This document shows positions 4,793-16,682 of a stretch of 45,630 nucleotides of DNA, in pieces (the first letter of the stretch is position 1; each line of letters starts with the position of its first letter). The notes under the pieces were generated by a model. It was not told the DNA's origin. It did no database searches and saw nothing but the letters and a program-made list of their open reading frames with translations. The position numbers were made by a program, and so were the translations under genes. This DNA comes from Methanothermobacter sp. GTDB taxonomy: Archaea > Methanobacteriota > Methanobacteria > Methanobacteriales > Methanothermobacteraceae. The stretch spans positions 1-45,630 of the forward strand of contig NZ_JASFYE010000007.1 in the NCBI RefSeq assembly GCF_030055425.1, in the 5' to 3' direction.

Positions 4793-5854
4793 ATGAGGAT
4801 AGTACATGAGGATGAGAAAAACGGCGTCATAGAAGTTGTACCAGAAACCCTTGACGATCTCTGGCACCTCTCCCATATAATTGAGGAGGGGGACCTGCTT
4901 TCGGCAAGGACAACAAGGAGGATACAGGATACCAGTGGAGAGAAGATAAGAAGCGACAGGGGAGTTAAGAAAACCTTCTATCTGGGTATAAGGGTGGAAG
5001 GTGTCAGTTTCCACATCTACACAGGAAAACTCAGAGCAACAGGGGTTATAGAGCGGGGCCCTGAGGACCTGGTCCCCCTTGGGTCGCACCACACCCTTGA
5101 GGTTAAACTCAACACCCCCCTCAGGATCAAAAAGGATTCCTGGAGCAGATGGACACTTAAGAGGCTTCAGGAGGCGGTGGAGGCATCAAAGCATATCAGG
5201 GCAGTCATAGTTGTGATTGAGGATGATGTGGCAGACATTGGAGTCATAAGACAGTATGGTGTGGAGTACCAGGGCCCCATCACAGGTCACATCCCGGGTA
5301 AGAGGATGCAGCAGAGGGACCGGGGTAAACTGCGCCTTGAATTCTATGAGAGTATAGTGGACGCCCTAAAAAAATACGGTGAACTTGAGACAATCATAAT
5401 TGCAGGTCCTGGCTTCTACAAGTCGGACTTCCATGAATACCTGCTTGAGAAGCACCCTGAGATCGGAAGGAAGGCCGTGGTTGAGAACACCGGGACCGGC
5501 GGAAGGTCAGGAATATACGAGGTTCTTAAGAAGGGCACCGTGGAGAGGGTTTCATCAGAGAACAGGGTGGCAGCAGAGGTAAGGAATGTGAATGAGGTCC
5601 TTGAGAGGCTTGGGAGGGACCCTGAAACGGTGGTCTATGGCAGGGAGGAGGTGCTGGATGCCATCAATATGGGGGCTGTTGAGAGGCTGCTGGTCCTTGA
5701 CAGGGTTGTAAGCAGGGAGGATATTGAGGGATACCTTGATATCGTTGAGAGCATGGGGGGTTCCGTGGTTCTCATAAGCAGTGAACACGAGGGCGGTAAA
5801 CAGCTGGAATCCCTCGGTGGACTTGCAGGTATCCTGAGGTTCAGGATTTCATGA
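4793..5854 (+). CDS. pelA: Pelota (aPelota), ribosome rescue factor
   Basis: Recognises stalled ribosomes in the A site with aEF1A and triggers ABCE1-dependent subunit splitting. The 353-residue protein has the three-domain eRF1/pelota layout: an N-terminal Sm-like domain (about 1-125, starting MRIVHEDEKNGVIEVVPE), a central domain (about 130-255) that lacks the GGQ hydrolysis loop as expected for pelota rather than aRF1, and a C-terminal L30e-like domain (about 260-353, with YGREEVLDAINMGAVERLL). Length is normal. It heads a plus-strand run: the radical SAM gene starts 12 bases after its stop, and the MraY-like gene follows. Confidence 0.96.
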   Translation: MRIVHEDEKNGVIEVVPETLDDLWHLSHIIEEGDLLSARTTRRIQDTSGEKIRSDRGVKKTFYLGIRVEGVSFHIYTGKLRATGVIERGPEDLVPLGSHHTLEVKLNTPLRIKKDSWSRWTLKRLQEAVEASKHIRAVIVVIEDDVADIGVIRQYGVEYQGPITGHIPGKRMQQRDRGKLRLEFYESIVDALKKYGELETIIIAGPGFYKSDFHEYLLEKHPEIGRKAVVENTGTGGRSGIYEVLKKGTVERVSSENRVAAEVRNVNEVLERLGRDPETVVYGREEVLDAINMGAVERLLVLDRVVSREDIEGYLDIVESMGGSVVLISSEHEGGKQLESLGGLAGILRFRIS

Positions 5855-5866
5855 TGGGGGTATCAG

Positions 5867-7021
5867 GTGTTCAGGATTCTCCAGGATAAATGCACCGGCT
5901 GCGGGAGATGCAGGATGCTCCAGTGCAGCGGAAAATGTTCAGGGTGTGGGGCCTGCCAGCGGGTATGCCCTGAGGGCGCAGTTGTTCCAGGGAGTAGGGA
6001 TGATACAGAGTACAGGGTGACAGTAAACAGTGAAGATGTCATGGCCACCGGCACCGTGGGGGACGCCCTTGAGGTTGCAGGTATCAGGGTAAGTGACATT
6101 CCCTGTGAGGGCGAATTATTCTCACCATGCGGTACAGGCGGATGCTGGGCCTGCGCTGTATCAGCAAATGGCAGGACGGTGCAGTCCTGTGTAACACCCC
6201 TTGAGGAGGGGATGGTCATAGAGACCATACCTGAACCACCACTCAGGTATGTGAGCAACTTCGGCCCCCACACTGCTGGGGGAGTGGGGACACCCTTCAG
6301 TGAAAAGGGGGATGGCCCCGTTGAGGTGGTGTGCTTCGCCCATGGATGCAACCTGAGGTGTCCCCAGTGCCAGAACAGCCAGGTGGCGTTCACCAGGGGT
6401 GACACTTTGCTTGACCCTGAAGAAACCGCAATGATACTCCTTGGGGTTGAATCGATTTACAGGACAGGCACCGTGACGTTCTCTGGCGGTGAATGCACAC
6501 TTAACAGGTCATGGCTCTCCGGTTCAGTGAGGAGGATAAGGGAACTTGATGGGGGGATCAACATTCACGTGGACACAAATGGCACCGTGCTCACCCAGGG
6601 ATACATTGATGAACTTGTTGAGGCCGGCATGAACCGGATAGGAATTGACCTCAAGGGTAGGAGGCTGGAGACATTCATGGGGATAGCAGGGCTCAGCGAC
6701 ACTGAGAAAGCCAGTGTGTACCTTGAAAACGCCTGGAATGCCTTCAGGTACATATCTGAGGAGCATGATGGAATATTCATGGGCCTGGGGGTCCCATACA
6801 ACAGGGCACTCATATCCACCGGGGAGATTGCTGAAATGGCGTCTGAGATAGCCTCTGTCAGTCCAGACGTCCAGGTAACCCTCCTTGACTACAGGCCCGA
6901 GTTCAGGCTTAAAAACATAAAGAGGCCCTCGGTTTCTGAAATGATTGTGGTTCGTGACCTGATGCTTGACGGGGGCCTCAGAAGGGTAATTGTTCAGACA
7001 TCGGAGGGGTTCATAGGATGA
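5867..7021 (+). CDS. Radical SAM protein with N-terminal ferredoxin-like and 2Fe-2S-like regions
   Basis: A 384-residue protein of unknown substrate. Residues 9-34 contain eight cysteines in ferredoxin-like spacing (CTGCGRC, then CSGCGACQRVCP). Residues about 45-120 look like a plant-type 2Fe-2S or molybdopterin-style ubiquitin fold, with Cys 80, 88, 93, 96 and 108. The radical SAM core begins near 155 with CNLRCPQC (Cys 161, 165, 168) and a GGE motif at 207-209, similar to pyruvate-formate-lyase-activase-like enzymes. Start is GTG 5867 with a GGGGG site 6 bases upstream. It lies between pelA and the MraY-like gene, apparently cotranscribed. It could be a glycyl-radical activase-like or peptide-modifying enzyme; neither partner is nearby, so function is left open. 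Confidence 0.85.
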   Translation: MFRILQDKCTGCGRCRMLQCSGKCSGCGACQRVCPEGAVVPGSRDDTEYRVTVNSEDVMATGTVGDALEVAGIRVSDIPCEGELFSPCGTGGCWACAVSANGRTVQSCVTPLEEGMVIETIPEPPLRYVSNFGPHTAGGVGTPFSEKGDGPVEVVCFAHGCNLRCPQCQNSQVAFTRGDTLLDPEETAMILLGVESIYRTGTVTFSGGECTLNRSWLSGSVRRIRELDGGINIHVDTNGTVLTQGYIDELVEAGMNRIGIDLKGRRLETFMGIAGLSDTEKASVYLENAWNAFRYISEEHDGIFMGLGVPYNRALISTGEIAEMASEIASVSPDVQVTLLDYRPEFRLKNIKRPSVSEMIVVRDLMLDGGLRRVIVQTSEGFIG

Positions 7022-7042: not shown

Positions 7043-7933
7043 ATGCTTATGTTGATTTATGACTGGGACCTGCTTTTAGCGGCTGTCGCTGTGCTTGTAC
7101 TGACACCTGCTGCTGCGGCCATCATATCCCTCTTTAAAAATTCAAATCTCTACACTGATGTGAGGGGTGGCACACCCCGCGGTGCCGGTATTGTTCCATG
7201 GGCAGCACTCTCCATATTCACACCCCCACCATTTAACGTGCCTATTGCTGTAATGGGGGTTCTGGCCTTTATTGATGACCTTGCTGGAAGAAGAGGGATA
7301 ATGAACCTTCCCATTGAGTGGGGGCAGCTTTCAAGGGGATTGGGTATACTGGGAGTCTTCCTCATCACCTACCCCTTCATGGGGGCATGGGGGCTCCTTG
7401 TGGCACTCATGGTACAGCCATTGAATATTGCCGACATGCAGCCGGGTGTGGCCTGCACCGTGACTGTCATCATGTCCCTCCTGGCACTCCCTGCAGCGGT
7501 CGTAACAGGTTCAGGCATCCACCTTGCCCTTCTCATCATGGTGGTGGCACTGGCGTACTCACCACTTGATTACATGGGGAGGGTAATGATGGGGGAGGTT
7601 GGAAACCACAGCTTCGCAGTTGCCCTCGGCCTCTTATTCTACAGTTCAGGGGGGCCGTGGCTTCTCCTGGTGCTCTTTCTCCTCACACCCCTTGTAACGG
7701 CCATTTTAAGGAGGGGCAATCTCTCAGAATTCCTTGAGAAGAGACTTAAAATTGAGAACCCCACCCTCGGGGATCTTTATATGGATGTCATGACAGGCGG
7801 AGGTCTCGGGGATCTTTTAAGGAGGATCATACTCGGTAGGAGGGCTTTCAGAATCAGGAACCCCTTCCTGATTTCGCTGGGGTTCAGAAGGCTACTTTTC
7901 AACCCCCATGCGTCCCGGCTCCCGGAGTCCTGA
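7043..7933 (+). CDS. Divergent MraY/WecA-like membrane glycosyl-1-phosphate transferase
   Basis: A 296-residue polytopic protein with about eight to nine hydrophobic segments. Family landmarks are in the right order: RGGTPRGAG (41-49, like the K-TP-MGG loop of MraY), FIDDLAG (77-83, paired aspartates), NIADMQPG (128-135, like the N--D--DG motif) and MGEVGNHS (183-190, like MGD-GS). The last two are altered, with Glu in place of the usual catalytic-region Asp, so activity is uncertain. By analogy it would transfer a sugar phosphate to a polyprenyl phosphate at the membrane. In a pseudomurein organism it is a candidate for the lipid-linked cell wall precursor step. A MurG-like gene lies 1.8 kb downstream. 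ATG 7043 has a GGGTGGGAG site. Confidence 0.75.
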   Translation: MLMLIYDWDLLLAAVAVLVLTPAAAAIISLFKNSNLYTDVRGGTPRGAGIVPWAALSIFTPPPFNVPIAVMGVLAFIDDLAGRRGIMNLPIEWGQLSRGLGILGVFLITYPFMGAWGLLVALMVQPLNIADMQPGVACTVTVIMSLLALPAAVVTGSGIHLALLIMVVALAYSPLDYMGRVMMGEVGNHSFAVALGLLFYSSGGPWLLLVLFLLTPLVTAILRRGNLSEFLEKRLKIENPTLGDLYMDVMTGGGLGDLLRRIILGRRAFRIRNPFLISLGFRRLLFNPHASRLPES

Positions 7934-12226: not shown

Positions 12227-12475
12227 ATGTGTATTGCAGCACCTGCTCAGATTATTGAAATTGACAGTGAGGATAATGTTGCCACCGTCGACTTTGGTGG
12301 TGTGAGGCAACAGGTGAAACTTGATCTTGTGGATGACGTTGCGGAGGGCAAGTATGTGCTTGTTCACTCAGGCTACGCCATTGAGGTCATGTCTGACGAG
12401 GCGGCCAGGGAGTCCCTGGAGGCCTGGGATGAACTTCTAAAGGCCCTTGAAGAGGAGGATAACCTGGAAATTTGA
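12227..12475 (+). CDS. hypC: HypC/HupF hydrogenase maturation chaperone
   Basis: An 82-residue protein starting MCIAAPAQIIEID, the hallmark MC---P-(KQ) start in which Cys2 binds the Fe(CN)2CO unit on its way from HypD to the large subunit of [NiFe] hydrogenases. The OB-like beta-barrel region (about 3-55, with VATVDFGGVRQQVKLDLV and KYVLVHSGYAIE) and acidic helical C-terminus match the family in length and pattern. It would serve the several [NiFe] hydrogenases of a hydrogenotrophic methanogen (family knowledge). It stands alone here, with no hypA, B, D, E or F or hydrogenase gene in the window. Confidence 0.95.
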   Translation: MCIAAPAQIIEIDSEDNVATVDFGGVRQQVKLDLVDDVAEGKYVLVHSGYAIEVMSDEAARESLEAWDELLKALEEEDNLEI

Positions 12476-13144: not shown

Positions 13145-14557
13145 ATGGGAGTGAATGTTTTTGGCATTATAAACCTGGAAAAACCCATAAAAGAAAAACT
13201 GGAATTCAGAGAACCCTTTGAAGTATTCAAAAGTATCTATTCTGAATATGAGTCTTCATTCCTTCTGGAGTCCATGGAAAGTGACACTGGACTTGCAAGG
13301 TACTCCTTCATTGGATTTGAACCTGAGATGATAATAAGGGCCCGTGAAGGGGTCATTGAGGTTGATGATGGCGATTCCAGGGAGGAGTTTGATTCAAAAA
13401 ACCCATTCGAGGACCTCAGGGGATTTCTGAAGATGGAAAAAAAGTCCGGAGGATTCTGTGGGGGTCTCGTGGGTTACATATCCTATCAGGCCGCAAGATT
13501 CTTTGACACCATCAGGCTCAGTGAAGGTGATTTCCCTGATTTTGAATTTGGACTCTTCCTTGATGGTATCATGTTCAACCACCTGACAGGGAAATGCAGT
13601 TACATCAGCCGTCACGGCAACAGGCTACCTGATATATCCCCTCTTCTTGGGGATGATGTCCCCACGGGGAGCCTTGGATACAGGAGGGAAAGAACACTCC
13701 TCTCAAAGAGGAGGTACATGGACATGGTCCTTGAGGCCAAGGAGAGGATAAGGGAGGGTGAAATATTTCAGGCAGTGCTCTCCAATGCCACAGATTACAG
13801 GCTGAGGGGAGACAGGCTGGCATTCTATGAATCCCTCAGGAGGATCAACCCCTCCCCATACATGTACCACCTTAAACTGGGTGAAAGGGAGATAACCGGC
13901 TCAAGCCCCGAGATGCTTGTCAGGGTTGAGGATAGAAGGGCTGAAACCTTCCCTATTGCAGGAACGCGTCCCAGAGGAAGGACAGAAGAGGAGGACAGGG
14001 TGATAGCCTCTGATCTTTTATCTGATGAGAAGGAACTTGCAGAGCACCTCATGCTGGTTGACCTGGCCCGGAACGATATAGGGCGGGTCTCGGAGTTTGG
14101 CTCGGTGGAGGTGCCTGAATACATGACCATAAAGAGGTTCTCCCATGTGCAGCACATACTCTCCCATGTAACCGGTAAATTGAGGGATGGAATTGACGCG
14201 ATTGATGCACTGGGGGCTGTTTTTCCTGCAGGCACCGTGAGCGGAGCACCAAAGATAAGGGCAATGGAGATAATAGAGTCCCTTGAGGGTGTTCCAAGAA
14301 ATGCCTATGCAGGTGCACTCGGCTACCTCTCACTCAATGGAAACGCGGACTTCGCAATAACCATAAGGTCAATGGTATGCCAGGGGAAAACAGGGAGAAT
14401 CCAGGCAGGAGCAGGGATAGTGCATGACTCCATCCCGGAGATGGAATATCTGGAATGCCAGAATAAGGCCAGGGCCCTTATAAAATCAATGGAAATGGCA
14501 GCTGACACTGAGCATCTTATGGGTGCTCAGCTGCCCTACAATGGAAGTGGCAGGTGA
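13145..14557 (+). CDS. trpE: Anthranilate synthase component I
   Basis: Converts chorismate to anthranilate with ammonia from TrpG. The 470-residue protein has the tryptophan feedback site LLES (about 40-43) in the N-terminal domain and the full chorismate-binding core: GEIFQAVLSN, PIAGTRPRG, HLMLVDLARNDIGRV, FPAGTVSGAPKIRAMEIIE and the metal-binding end IQAGAGIVHDSIPEMEYLE. It is the first gene of trpEGCFBAD and overlaps trpG by 4 bases. The chosen ATG 13145 lies 8 bases after GGTGAT; a neighbouring ATG at 13141 is in another frame and leads only to a 26-codon frame. Transcription is expected to be repressed by TrpY. Confidence 0.97.
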   Translation: MGVNVFGIINLEKPIKEKLEFREPFEVFKSIYSEYESSFLLESMESDTGLARYSFIGFEPEMIIRAREGVIEVDDGDSREEFDSKNPFEDLRGFLKMEKKSGGFCGGLVGYISYQAARFFDTIRLSEGDFPDFEFGLFLDGIMFNHLTGKCSYISRHGNRLPDISPLLGDDVPTGSLGYRRERTLLSKRRYMDMVLEAKERIREGEIFQAVLSNATDYRLRGDRLAFYESLRRINPSPYMYHLKLGEREITGSSPEMLVRVEDRRAETFPIAGTRPRGRTEEEDRVIASDLLSDEKELAEHLMLVDLARNDIGRVSEFGSVEVPEYMTIKRFSHVQHILSHVTGKLRDGIDAIDALGAVFPAGTVSGAPKIRAMEIIESLEGVPRNAYAGALGYLSLNGNADFAITIRSMVCQGKTGRIQAGAGIVHDSIPEMEYLECQNKARALIKSMEMAADTEHLMGAQLPYNGSGR

Positions 14558-15144
14558 AGAAGTTGATCCTGATAATCGATAACTATGACTCATTCACCCA
14601 CAACCTCTACCAGATGGCAGGGGAGATCCTGATGGAAATGGATTCTGCAGATATCCTGGTTGTGAGAAACGATGAGGTGGACATTGATGATGTTAGGGAC
14701 CTTGACCCTGAGAAGATAATAATCTCCCCGGGTCCAGGCAACCCCATTAAGAGGGAAGATTTTGGCATATGCGGTGATGTGATAGGTGAATTCACTGATA
14801 GACCCATACTGGGTGTCTGCCTCGGGCACCAGGGGATATTCCATTACTTTGGCGGTGCTGTTGGTTACGCGGAACCTGTTCATGGGAAGATCAGCCAGGT
14901 CTTCCATGACGGGTCAGAACTCTTCAGGGGAGTTCCAAATCCCTTCCTGGCCACAAGGTACCATTCACTGAGATGTGAGTGTAATGGGGTGCCTGAGGAC
15001 ATCCTGGTATCTGCATCTGCACCTGACGGCACCATAATGGCCATAAGACACCGGAAGTATCCAGTCTACGGGTTACAGTTCCACCCGGAATCCGCAGGAA
15101 CCCCCCACGGGAGGGACATACTTGAGAACTTCCTCAGGATGTGA
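14554..15144 (+). CDS. trpG: Anthranilate synthase component II (glutamine amidotransferase)
   Basis: A 196-residue class I glutamine amidotransferase that supplies ammonia to TrpE. Seen are the oxyanion region [10 protein letters not shown], the nucleophile elbow GVCLGHQG and the catalytic His-Glu in QFHPES; start [20 protein letters not shown] is typical. It uses a GTG start overlapping the trpE stop (GTGA), consistent with translational coupling and equal subunit supply. There is no fusion to trpD, unlike some enteric bacteria. Length is normal. Confidence 0.97.
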
Positions 15145-15148
15145 TCAC

Positions 15149-15973
15149 ATGTCCATACTTCAGGAGATAATAAGGTCAAGAAAACTTGAGATCAAAAATT
15201 TATCCAGAAAAAAGCCCCTTGAGGAGCTCAGGGATGAATTAACATCCCTGGACGAACCATTGAGTTTCACCGATGCCCTCACAGGAAACAGGGTATCACT
15301 CATATGTGAATATAAAAGGGCATCCCCCTCCTCAGGGAGGACATATGGGAGAGGCCTCCATGAGATGATGGAGGTGTACAGGGAGGGTGCAGACGCTGTT
15401 TCTGTTATAACAGAGAACAGGTACTTTCAGGGCTCCATCGAGTTCCTCAGGGAGGCTTCAGAATATGGCATACCCCTTCTCATGAAGGACTTCGTGGTGG
15501 ACGAGTACCAGATATACCAGGCAAGGGCATCAGGGGCATCATCGGTTCTCCTAATAACCGGGGTTTGCCCTGACCTTGAATCAGGGATCGAAACCTGCAG
15601 GGAACTCTCAATGGAGCCCCTGGTGGAGTGTCACAGCGCAATCGACATATACAGGGCCATAGAGGCCGGGGCAGAGATCATAGGAGTTAACAACAGAAAC
15701 CTGGAAACACTCGAGGTTGACCTTGAGCGGACAAGGGCCCTGGCCCCCCTGGTACCTGATGACCTGCTCATGGTATCAGAAAGCGGGGTCAGGGGACCTG
15801 AGGATGCTGAGATCCTTGCAGGCTGCGGGGCGGATGCACTGCTCATAGGAACCTCCCTCATGCTGGCCAGTGATCCACGGGAACTCCTTGATGAGATAAT
15901 GGCAGCTGTTAAATCCTGCAGACCTGGCAGAAAGAGGTACTCAGGGGATGAATTCTTTGAACAGTTCGCATGA
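15149..15973 (+). CDS. trpC: Indole-3-glycerol-phosphate synthase
   Basis: Fourth step of tryptophan synthesis, ring closure of CdRP to indoleglycerol phosphate. A 274-residue (beta/alpha)8 barrel with [11 protein letters not shown] (catalytic Lys), [26 protein letters not shown] and SESGV in the usual order. ATG 15149 follows GGATGTGATC, an excellent binding site that spans the trpG stop; a longer in-frame start inside trpG is rejected. It is a separate gene from trpF here, not fused. Confidence 0.96.
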
Positions 15974-15992
15974 GCAATCTCTGGGGACAGGG

Positions 15993-16682
15993 ATGAGTCA
16001 TATGAAGATCAAGATCTGTGGGCTCACCAGGGAGGAGGACGTTGTCCTTGCAGATTCACTTGGGGCCGATTTACTGGGATTCATACATATCCGCAGGTCG
16101 CCAAGGCACCTTGAACTGGGGGATGTGGCGGAACTCTCCTCCATCATACCGGATGAAAAGGCGGTTCTTGTCCTTGAGACATCAGAAACCAGTAGGATAA
16201 GGGAGGCCATAGATGAAACAGGTATAGAAAGGATACAGCTTCACTCTGTAAGTCCTGAAACAGCTGGAAGAATCCATGAGTCCCTCCATGATGATGGATA
16301 CAGTCTGGAGCTGACCCTCGCCATCCCCCCACTTTCTTCCTACATCTGCGGACATGAATTTCAGGGAGTATCCGGCCTGATCCTTGACTCGGCTGCAGGC
16401 GGAAAAACAGGGGGCACAGGGAAGATAATACCCCCCTCAGATGGCCTTGAGTTACTGGCCCTTGTAAGGGGAATGGATCCCTCCCTGAGGGTTACACTTG
16501 CAGGGGGCCTTACACTGGAATTTGTCAGGAAAAACATGGAATATGTATCGAAATTCGACTGCCTGGACTTCAACTCAGGAATTGAGGCTGAGCCGGGTGT
16601 AAAGGACCATGAGATGATGGCTGAACTCATGGACTACATTGAGGGACTCCCCTCCAGAAAAGGGGCAATTGAAAAATTATAG
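15993..16682 (+). CDS. trpF: Phosphoribosylanthranilate isomerase
   Basis: Amadori rearrangement of PRA to CdRP. The 229-residue barrel opens with [27 protein letters not shown], which holds the catalytic Cys, and ends with [12 protein letters not shown] and [22 protein letters not shown], where the second catalytic residue and phosphate loop lie. Two starts are possible: ATG 15993 with GGGGA five bases upstream (chosen) and ATG 16002 with GGATGA. A longer start overlapping trpC has no support. Homologues usually begin at the KIKICG strand, so the true N-terminus is within three residues either way. Confidence 0.94.

Follow-up and report, generated by a model that had tools for sequence, protein, structure and literature searches.

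A radical SAM protein family of anaerobic archaea and bacteria that combines ferredoxin-like and [2Fe-2S] modules in one chain

Introduction

The in vivo electron supply of radical SAM enzymes is mostly not understood. In TYW1 of eukaryotes, which acts on a tRNA substrate, a flavodoxin is fused to radical SAM. The activating enzyme of PFL (PFL-AE; 3cb8/3c8f) is a protein of 245 amino acids without Fer4 or Fer2 modules, and activases of this type carry the signature DGPG-x-[RK] before the Cys motif. In sulfatase maturases, auxiliary clusters carry off the electron of the substrate radical. Electron relay through a [2Fe-2S] domain is found in HydA1, NuoG, formate dehydrogenase alpha, and FrdB. 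For PapB, one report argues for electron transfer through an auxiliary cluster (PMC10470005). Additionally, the GMGT synthase Gms is described as a radical SAM enzyme of strictly anaerobic archaea including Methanothermobacter (PMC11186832).

In this study, a gene of Methanothermobacter sp. was analyzed whose product begins with a ferredoxin-like segment containing eight Cys, continues with a [2Fe-2S] domain, and ends in a radical SAM barrel, as ordered by Pfam. The window is the whole stretch of DNA that was analyzed, comprising 45,630 nucleotides (contig NZ_JASFYE010000007.1, positions 1 to 45,630).

Results

The gene and its locus

The features of the locus are as follows.

4793..5854, + strand: flanking gene, pelota/eRF1-like (Pfam eRF1 domains on its L032 relative; synteny)
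5867..7021, + strand: three-module radical SAM protein gene, 384 amino acids, GTG start (open reading frame and relatives)
5891..5968, + strand: ferredoxin-like segment, residues 9-34 (Pfam Fer4, 8.9e-6; Cys conservation)
6002..6226, + strand: [2Fe-2S] domain, residues 46-120, complex I 75 kDa/HydA/FrdB type (Fer2_4, PDB profile, fold)
6128..6190, + strand: predicted 2Fe-2S ligands C88x4C93x2C96x11C108 (identical spacing in 82/82)
6245..6295, + strand: linker from the 2Fe-2S domain to the barrel, residues 127-143, with invariant R127, H135, and GGVGTP 138-143 (each 94/94)
6320..7018, + strand: radical SAM barrel, residues 152-384, PFL activating enzyme fold, without SPASM/Twitch Cys (Pfam, model, Cys survey)
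6347..6370, + strand: radical SAM CX3CX2C, residues 161-168 (94/94 rows)
7043..7933, + strand: flanking gene, membrane protein (synteny)

The open reading frame was confirmed at 5867-7021 (+), where the initial annotation had placed it. Among the 60 relatives searched, three congeneric genomes had copies with 92-96% identity and ten further relatives had copies with 49-68% identity, and because of this conservation the gene is considered real. The GTG at 5867 is the earliest possible start, since the upstream gene terminates in that frame (stop codon at 5852-5854), and a G-rich run is located ahead of it (5856-5860). The promoter scan of the locus was of the sigma-70 type, which is uninformative for an archaeon. 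A close paralogue was not found in the same genome, where the nearest match was a radical SAM open reading frame of 325 amino acids (37.3 bits versus 372.9 for the protein itself). The AlphaFold2 model of the whole protein had a pLDDT of 94.9 and a pTM of 0.92.

Distribution of the family

A pattern scan of GTDB contigs identified at least 115 loci of the family in anaerobic archaea and bacteria, and the best 80 of 115 relatives were kept for analysis. The archaeal holders included Methanobacteriales, ANME-1/2, Methanoperedens, Archaeoglobales, Methanomethylicia, Culexarchaeia, Bathyarchaeota, Asgard, and Nitrososphaeria bins, and the bacterial holders included Desulfobacterota, Chloroflexota (Dehalococcoidia), Aminicenantes, and Firmicutes bins; most records are metagenome bins, so that single taxon assignments may be contaminants. 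Within the genomes of the 60 relatives, a true relative was present in 14, namely all eight of the genus, all four of one family (f3), and two others (G048 and G049), while the remaining matches were generic radical SAM proteins only. The gene was found in 16 of 151 genomes of the phylum at E<=1e-20, and in 28 of 294 genomes sampled from the phylum to which one Archaeoglobus holder belongs at E<=1e-60. Three genomes, as identified by contig name, contained two family copies each (L072/L073, L091/L097, and L110/L111), and members may therefore have diverged in substrate.

An alignment of 94 rows was composed of 14 rows from the relatives and the best 80 of 115, with at least two organisms entered twice. 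For a second alignment of 82 rows, 12 of the 94 were left out as near copies or truncated (L003, L006, L011, L033, L034, L039, L049, L070, L073, L075, L088, and L090), and the window protein replaced L001. A tree of these 82 rows was constructed by a quick method with the ferredoxin columns removed; the 12 Methanobacteriales rows, including the window protein, formed one starred clade with a support of 99.

The best NCBIfam match of the window protein was NrdG2, and no match among those listed reached its curated cut-off. The family appears to be unnamed, with no NCBIfam name found for this combination of three known building blocks. A description of the fusion was also not found in the literature searched, the coverage of which mostly excluded subscription journals and preprints.

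The ferredoxin-like segment

The eight Cys in ferredoxin spacing that had been reported between residues 9 and 34 were located at positions 9, 12, 15, 20, 24, 27, 30, and 34 (C9x2C12x2C15x4C20 and C24x2C27x2C30x3C34), and each was kept in 76-79 of the 94 aligned rows. The Fer4 match scored 25.7 bits against a cut-off of 21.1. The second motif is the canonical CX2CX2CX3C, and the first has a final spacing of x4 in the window protein and of x3 to x5 in relatives; the gap between the two motifs ranged from three to 14 residues in the 82-row alignment. This segment probably binds two [4Fe-4S] clusters.

All eight Cys were found in 67 of the 82 rows, seven in four rows, and none in 11. One of the latter (L110) is cut by a contig end, and the other ten truly lack the segment. 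These ten two-module members, with a 2Fe-2S domain and radical SAM (L013, L014, L084, L087, L092, L099, L100, L102, L103, and L107), fell into two clades of the tree, one formed by L013/L014 and the other by eight desulfobacterial and deltaproteobacterial rows. At least three changes in the ferredoxin segment are needed on the tree: one for each of these clades and one for L110, the last being the contig end.

The [2Fe-2S] domain

The middle segment matched Fer2_4 with 28.7 bits against a cut-off of 22.8, and all 82 members matched at E<=0.001. The spacing CX4CX2CX11C was invariant across the 82 rows, with the domain present in every row, and in the larger alignment C88, C93, and C96 were kept in 93 of 94 rows and C108 in all 94. 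The initial annotation had described five Cys in a plant-type pattern between residues 80 and 108. Four of them, C88, C93, C96, and C108, stand as the predicted ligands, but C80 is Cys in only three of 94 rows and is hence not considered a ligand. Nor is the spacing that of chloroplast-type ferredoxins: a last Cys spacing of 11 residues is of the fumarate reductase FrdB type.

Among PDB profile matches, the N-terminal part of the protein was closest in its 2Fe-2S region to a NuoG-like chain (3.1e-12), HydA1 (1.1e-11), formate dehydrogenase alpha (2.4e-10), and FrdB (4.5e-8), and its ferredoxin part gave still better matches, to polyferredoxins. The fold search with the whole model returned only radical SAM chains among the matches listed, and the N-terminal 130 residues were therefore modelled alone (pLDDT 90.5). 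This model resembled the N-terminal domains of the complex I 75-kDa subunit, formate dehydrogenase, and hydrogenase, with the first of these as the best match (Z 10.2, 75 residues, 2.2 A, residues 47-130). The relation of the middle segment to 2Fe-2S folds, on which the initial annotation depended, is thus upheld by Fer2_4, the PDB profiles, and the predicted fold; it is a 2Fe-2S domain as judged by sequence and fold, and is predicted to bind a [2Fe-2S] cluster. While the domain shares its fold and sequence profile with complex I 75 kDa/NuoG, HydA, formate dehydrogenase alpha, and FrdB, in the window protein it is joined to a radical SAM barrel.

Two clades lack the ferredoxin segment, whereas the 2Fe-2S spacing never varies; the 2Fe-2S domain therefore looks integral, and the ferredoxin segment looks like an optional first relay.

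The linker and the radical SAM barrel

The Radical_SAM match of the window protein scored 61.4 bits against a cut-off of 29.5 (1.6e-16). The radical SAM Cys core noted previously was recovered as CX3CX2C at residues 161-168 in every one of the 94 rows, and R127, H135, GGVGTP138-143, E153, D261, K263, E320, Q336, and Y342 were likewise invariant. The SAM-site residues of the PFL-AE alignment (the DTN, DxK, and GGE motifs) were retained, with D236 in 92 of 94 rows and T237, N238, D261, K263, G207, G208, and E209 in 94 each. Residues 124-376 aligned with the PFL activase 3cb8 at Z 24.3 (229 residues, 2.4 A, 22% identity), followed by NifB (Z 21-23) and then viperin (Z 18-19); Foldseek was also used to order the fold matches of the whole model.

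After C168, no Cys of the window protein was conserved across the 94 rows except for the variable C210, which is Cys in 50 rows and Ser in 44. The Cys-rich C-terminal extension that marks SPASM/Twitch proteins was absent from the 94-row Cys survey. This distinguishes the family from Gms, in which such an extension is reported. The GMGT lipid synthase, which came into consideration because it, too, is a radical SAM enzyme found in strict anaerobes, was ruled out by this architecture.

Given CX3CX2C, the Pfam match, and a partial TIM barrel in the model, the protein is a member of the radical SAM superfamily, and it would be expected to cleave SAM.

The fusion within its own genome

The gene at 5867-7021 was the only one of 26 radical SAM matches in its genome that overlapped Fer2_4, and the NrdG2 of the same genome is a bare barrel of 231 amino acids. 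Within this genome, therefore, the fusion is not a common trait of activases, which sustains the earlier suggestion that it is unusual. The only other Fer2_4 match in the genome (L180; G000:C2:170585-170794(+)) is in an open reading frame of 902 amino acids, roughly 0.8 kb away from a presumably MoaA-like radical SAM gene.

Genomic neighborhood

The gene begins 12 bases after the pelota/eRF1-like gene and ends 21 bases before the gene at 7043..7933, the product of which we take to be an MraY-like membrane protein. This arrangement of pelota, radical SAM gene, and MraY-like gene is that of the Methanobacteriales, and the place beside pelota was conserved only within this order; the pelota/eRF1-like gene was not taken as a functional partner. 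Of 60 pelota loci found, 30 were read, and the radical SAM gene adjoined pelota in 14. In the other 16, the MraY-like gene followed in 15 with too little room between, the widest gap being about 0.7 kb (L176), and the last locus (L169) ended at a contig end. The simplest account of the history in Methanobacteriales would be descent at one site with losses. One genus included both states, with the gene present in L159 (G048) and absent in L158 (G034), a natural knock-out pair for co-lost genes.

No recurring neighbor was found among the best 80 of 115 loci, where the largest neighbor cluster occurred at six. The commonest Pfam family was found in only three of 77 same-strand neighbors; these 77 were scanned out of 81, the four of L033/L034 being omitted because of their close kinship with those of L032. 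The neighbor types included phosphoglycerate mutase-like, ABC transporter, O-methyltransferase, TatD, urocanase, peptidase, and other proteins. An operon partner was hence rejected as a guide to function, as ten recurring neighbors scanned singly also revealed nothing widely shared. The lack of a recurring neighbor suggests that the substrate is probably not encoded in an operon with the enzyme and probably acts in trans.

Additional observations were made in the surroundings of family genes. In two archaeal bins, the family gene is accompanied, in tail-to-tail orientation, by a second, different radical SAM gene of 346 amino acids (L047:7242-8282(-) and L058:2258-3298(-)). Among the open reading frames listed for the first 16 kb of the window, one of 82 amino acids at 12227-12475(+) presumably encodes the hydrogenase maturation protein HypC, and a run of open reading frames at 13145-16682(+) is presumed to represent trpE, trpG, trpC, and trpF of tryptophan biosynthesis.

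Discussion

Taken together, sequence, model, and analogy favor, with modest confidence, a radical SAM enzyme that stands alone and carries an electron relay within its own chain; a function as glycyl-radical activase is improbable. Electrons would come from a reduced donor of low potential, with a cellular ferredoxin as the likeliest candidate, and would enter at the N-terminal ferredoxin-like segment. From there they would cross the [2Fe-2S] domain, which is of the NuoG/FrdB type, and then the linker with its invariant R127 and GGVGTP before reaching the [4Fe-4S] cluster bound by CX3CX2C. SAM would then be cleaved in the PFL-activase-like barrel to the 5'-deoxyadenosyl radical, which would take a hydrogen from a substrate whose gene or synthesis lies elsewhere; our guess is a protein or other macromolecule met in trans. 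The cluster types and SAM cleavage are predicted, and the inward direction of the electrons is suggested by analogy. The proteins that the middle domain resembles most use this domain as a relay, which supports an in-chain role. In contrast, [2Fe-2S] clusters are often at a higher potential than the SAM cluster needs, so that inward flow would be uphill in places, and ten members manage without the ferredoxin segment; both points count against the relay. The idea of an in-chain electron donor is shared with TYW1, whose carrier is a flavin and of different origin.

The main rival reverses the direction: the N-terminal clusters would serve as an electron exit during a two-electron oxidation of the substrate, passing the electron of the substrate radical to ferredoxin or another acceptor. 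The same anatomy is compatible with either direction, and return through auxiliary clusters has been proposed for PapB (PMC10470005). However, the known exit clusters are of the C-terminal SPASM/Twitch kind, and here no Cys after C168 is conserved apart from the variable C210, which makes an exit unlikely. Somewhat less probable is a role in activating a glycyl radical enzyme, be it NrdD or a partner not yet recognised, with the electron donor built into the activase. PFL activase is the closest solved fold, NrdG2 (TIGR02495) is the best NCBIfam match and is matched by all 82 members at E<=1e-5, and NrdD is encoded in the same genome, as is NRDD in 34 of 50 holder genomes. Yet the window protein scored below the cut-offs of NrdG2 (62.8/131.15 bits), PFLA (43.7/231.75), and YjjW (43.0/250.2), whereas a separate gene, the true NrdG2 of the genome, scored 169.2. 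NrdD is present in 60 of 60 relatives (59 above cut-off) versus 14 of 60 for the family gene; in the own genome it is the only glycyl radical enzyme found, no Gly_radical domain was detected, and, in agreement with the initial annotation that no such enzyme is nearby, NrdD is on another contig. Gly_radical was searched in the 16 holder genomes without NRDD and in two NRDD holders: of the 16, nine have Gly_radical and seven have neither. Two of these seven are single chromosome records (G192 and G195, with L087 and L092), both with ferredoxin-less members, and the other five may be incomplete. Besides the shared barrel and motifs, the family differs from PFL-AE in having no established partner enzyme and no DGPG-R signature (0/94), with an invariant Glu at the Arg position (94/94). 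This last is a weak point, as the PFL-AE control was positive in the scan but the own-genome NrdG2 was negative, and the signature is thus not diagnostic of all activases. NrdD activase was consequently rejected as the main reading, given the separate NrdG2, the mismatch in distribution, and the seven of 50 holders without any glycyl radical enzyme. An activase role is unlikely in the genus Methanothermobacter, and the case against it is weaker for other members. The term "activase-like" used previously holds for the fold; as to function, the evidence speaks against it.

Two further alternatives concern what the extra clusters do. As structural or docking elements for redox partners, the N-terminal modules would not feed the SAM cluster, and the loss of the ferredoxin segment in two clades would fit; the invariant 2Fe-2S ligand spacing and linker point instead to a working cluster, and docking seems improbable. 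In a NifB-like metallocofactor maturase, the extra clusters would be cargo or substrate. NifB chains are the next-best fold matches, just behind PFL-AE, but the shared barrel accounts for this likeness, the N-terminal modules match electron carriers, and no cofactor-biosynthesis neighbor recurs, so a maturase is judged very improbable. AmmeMemoRadiSam was dismissed as a weak match only (20.3 bits versus 220).

The stand-alone enzyme with its own relay, if correct, would make the question of electron supply addressable in one polypeptide, and the reaction of a widespread family without an NCBIfam name among the matches listed is a tractable target. Methanothermobacter is a thermophilic genus with cultured species, and it holds a single-chain member of 384 amino acids. 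More tentatively, and more doubtfully than the relay itself, the family may represent a radical SAM subclass of a new kind. Its enzymes would contain, as an integral element, a [4Fe-4S]/[2Fe-2S] relay of the respiratory type, comparable to that of complex I or [FeFe] hydrogenase, and this relay would drive a novel modification of some conserved molecule in anaerobic archaea and bacteria. If so, radical chemistry would be linked directly to the low-potential electron pool of the cell.
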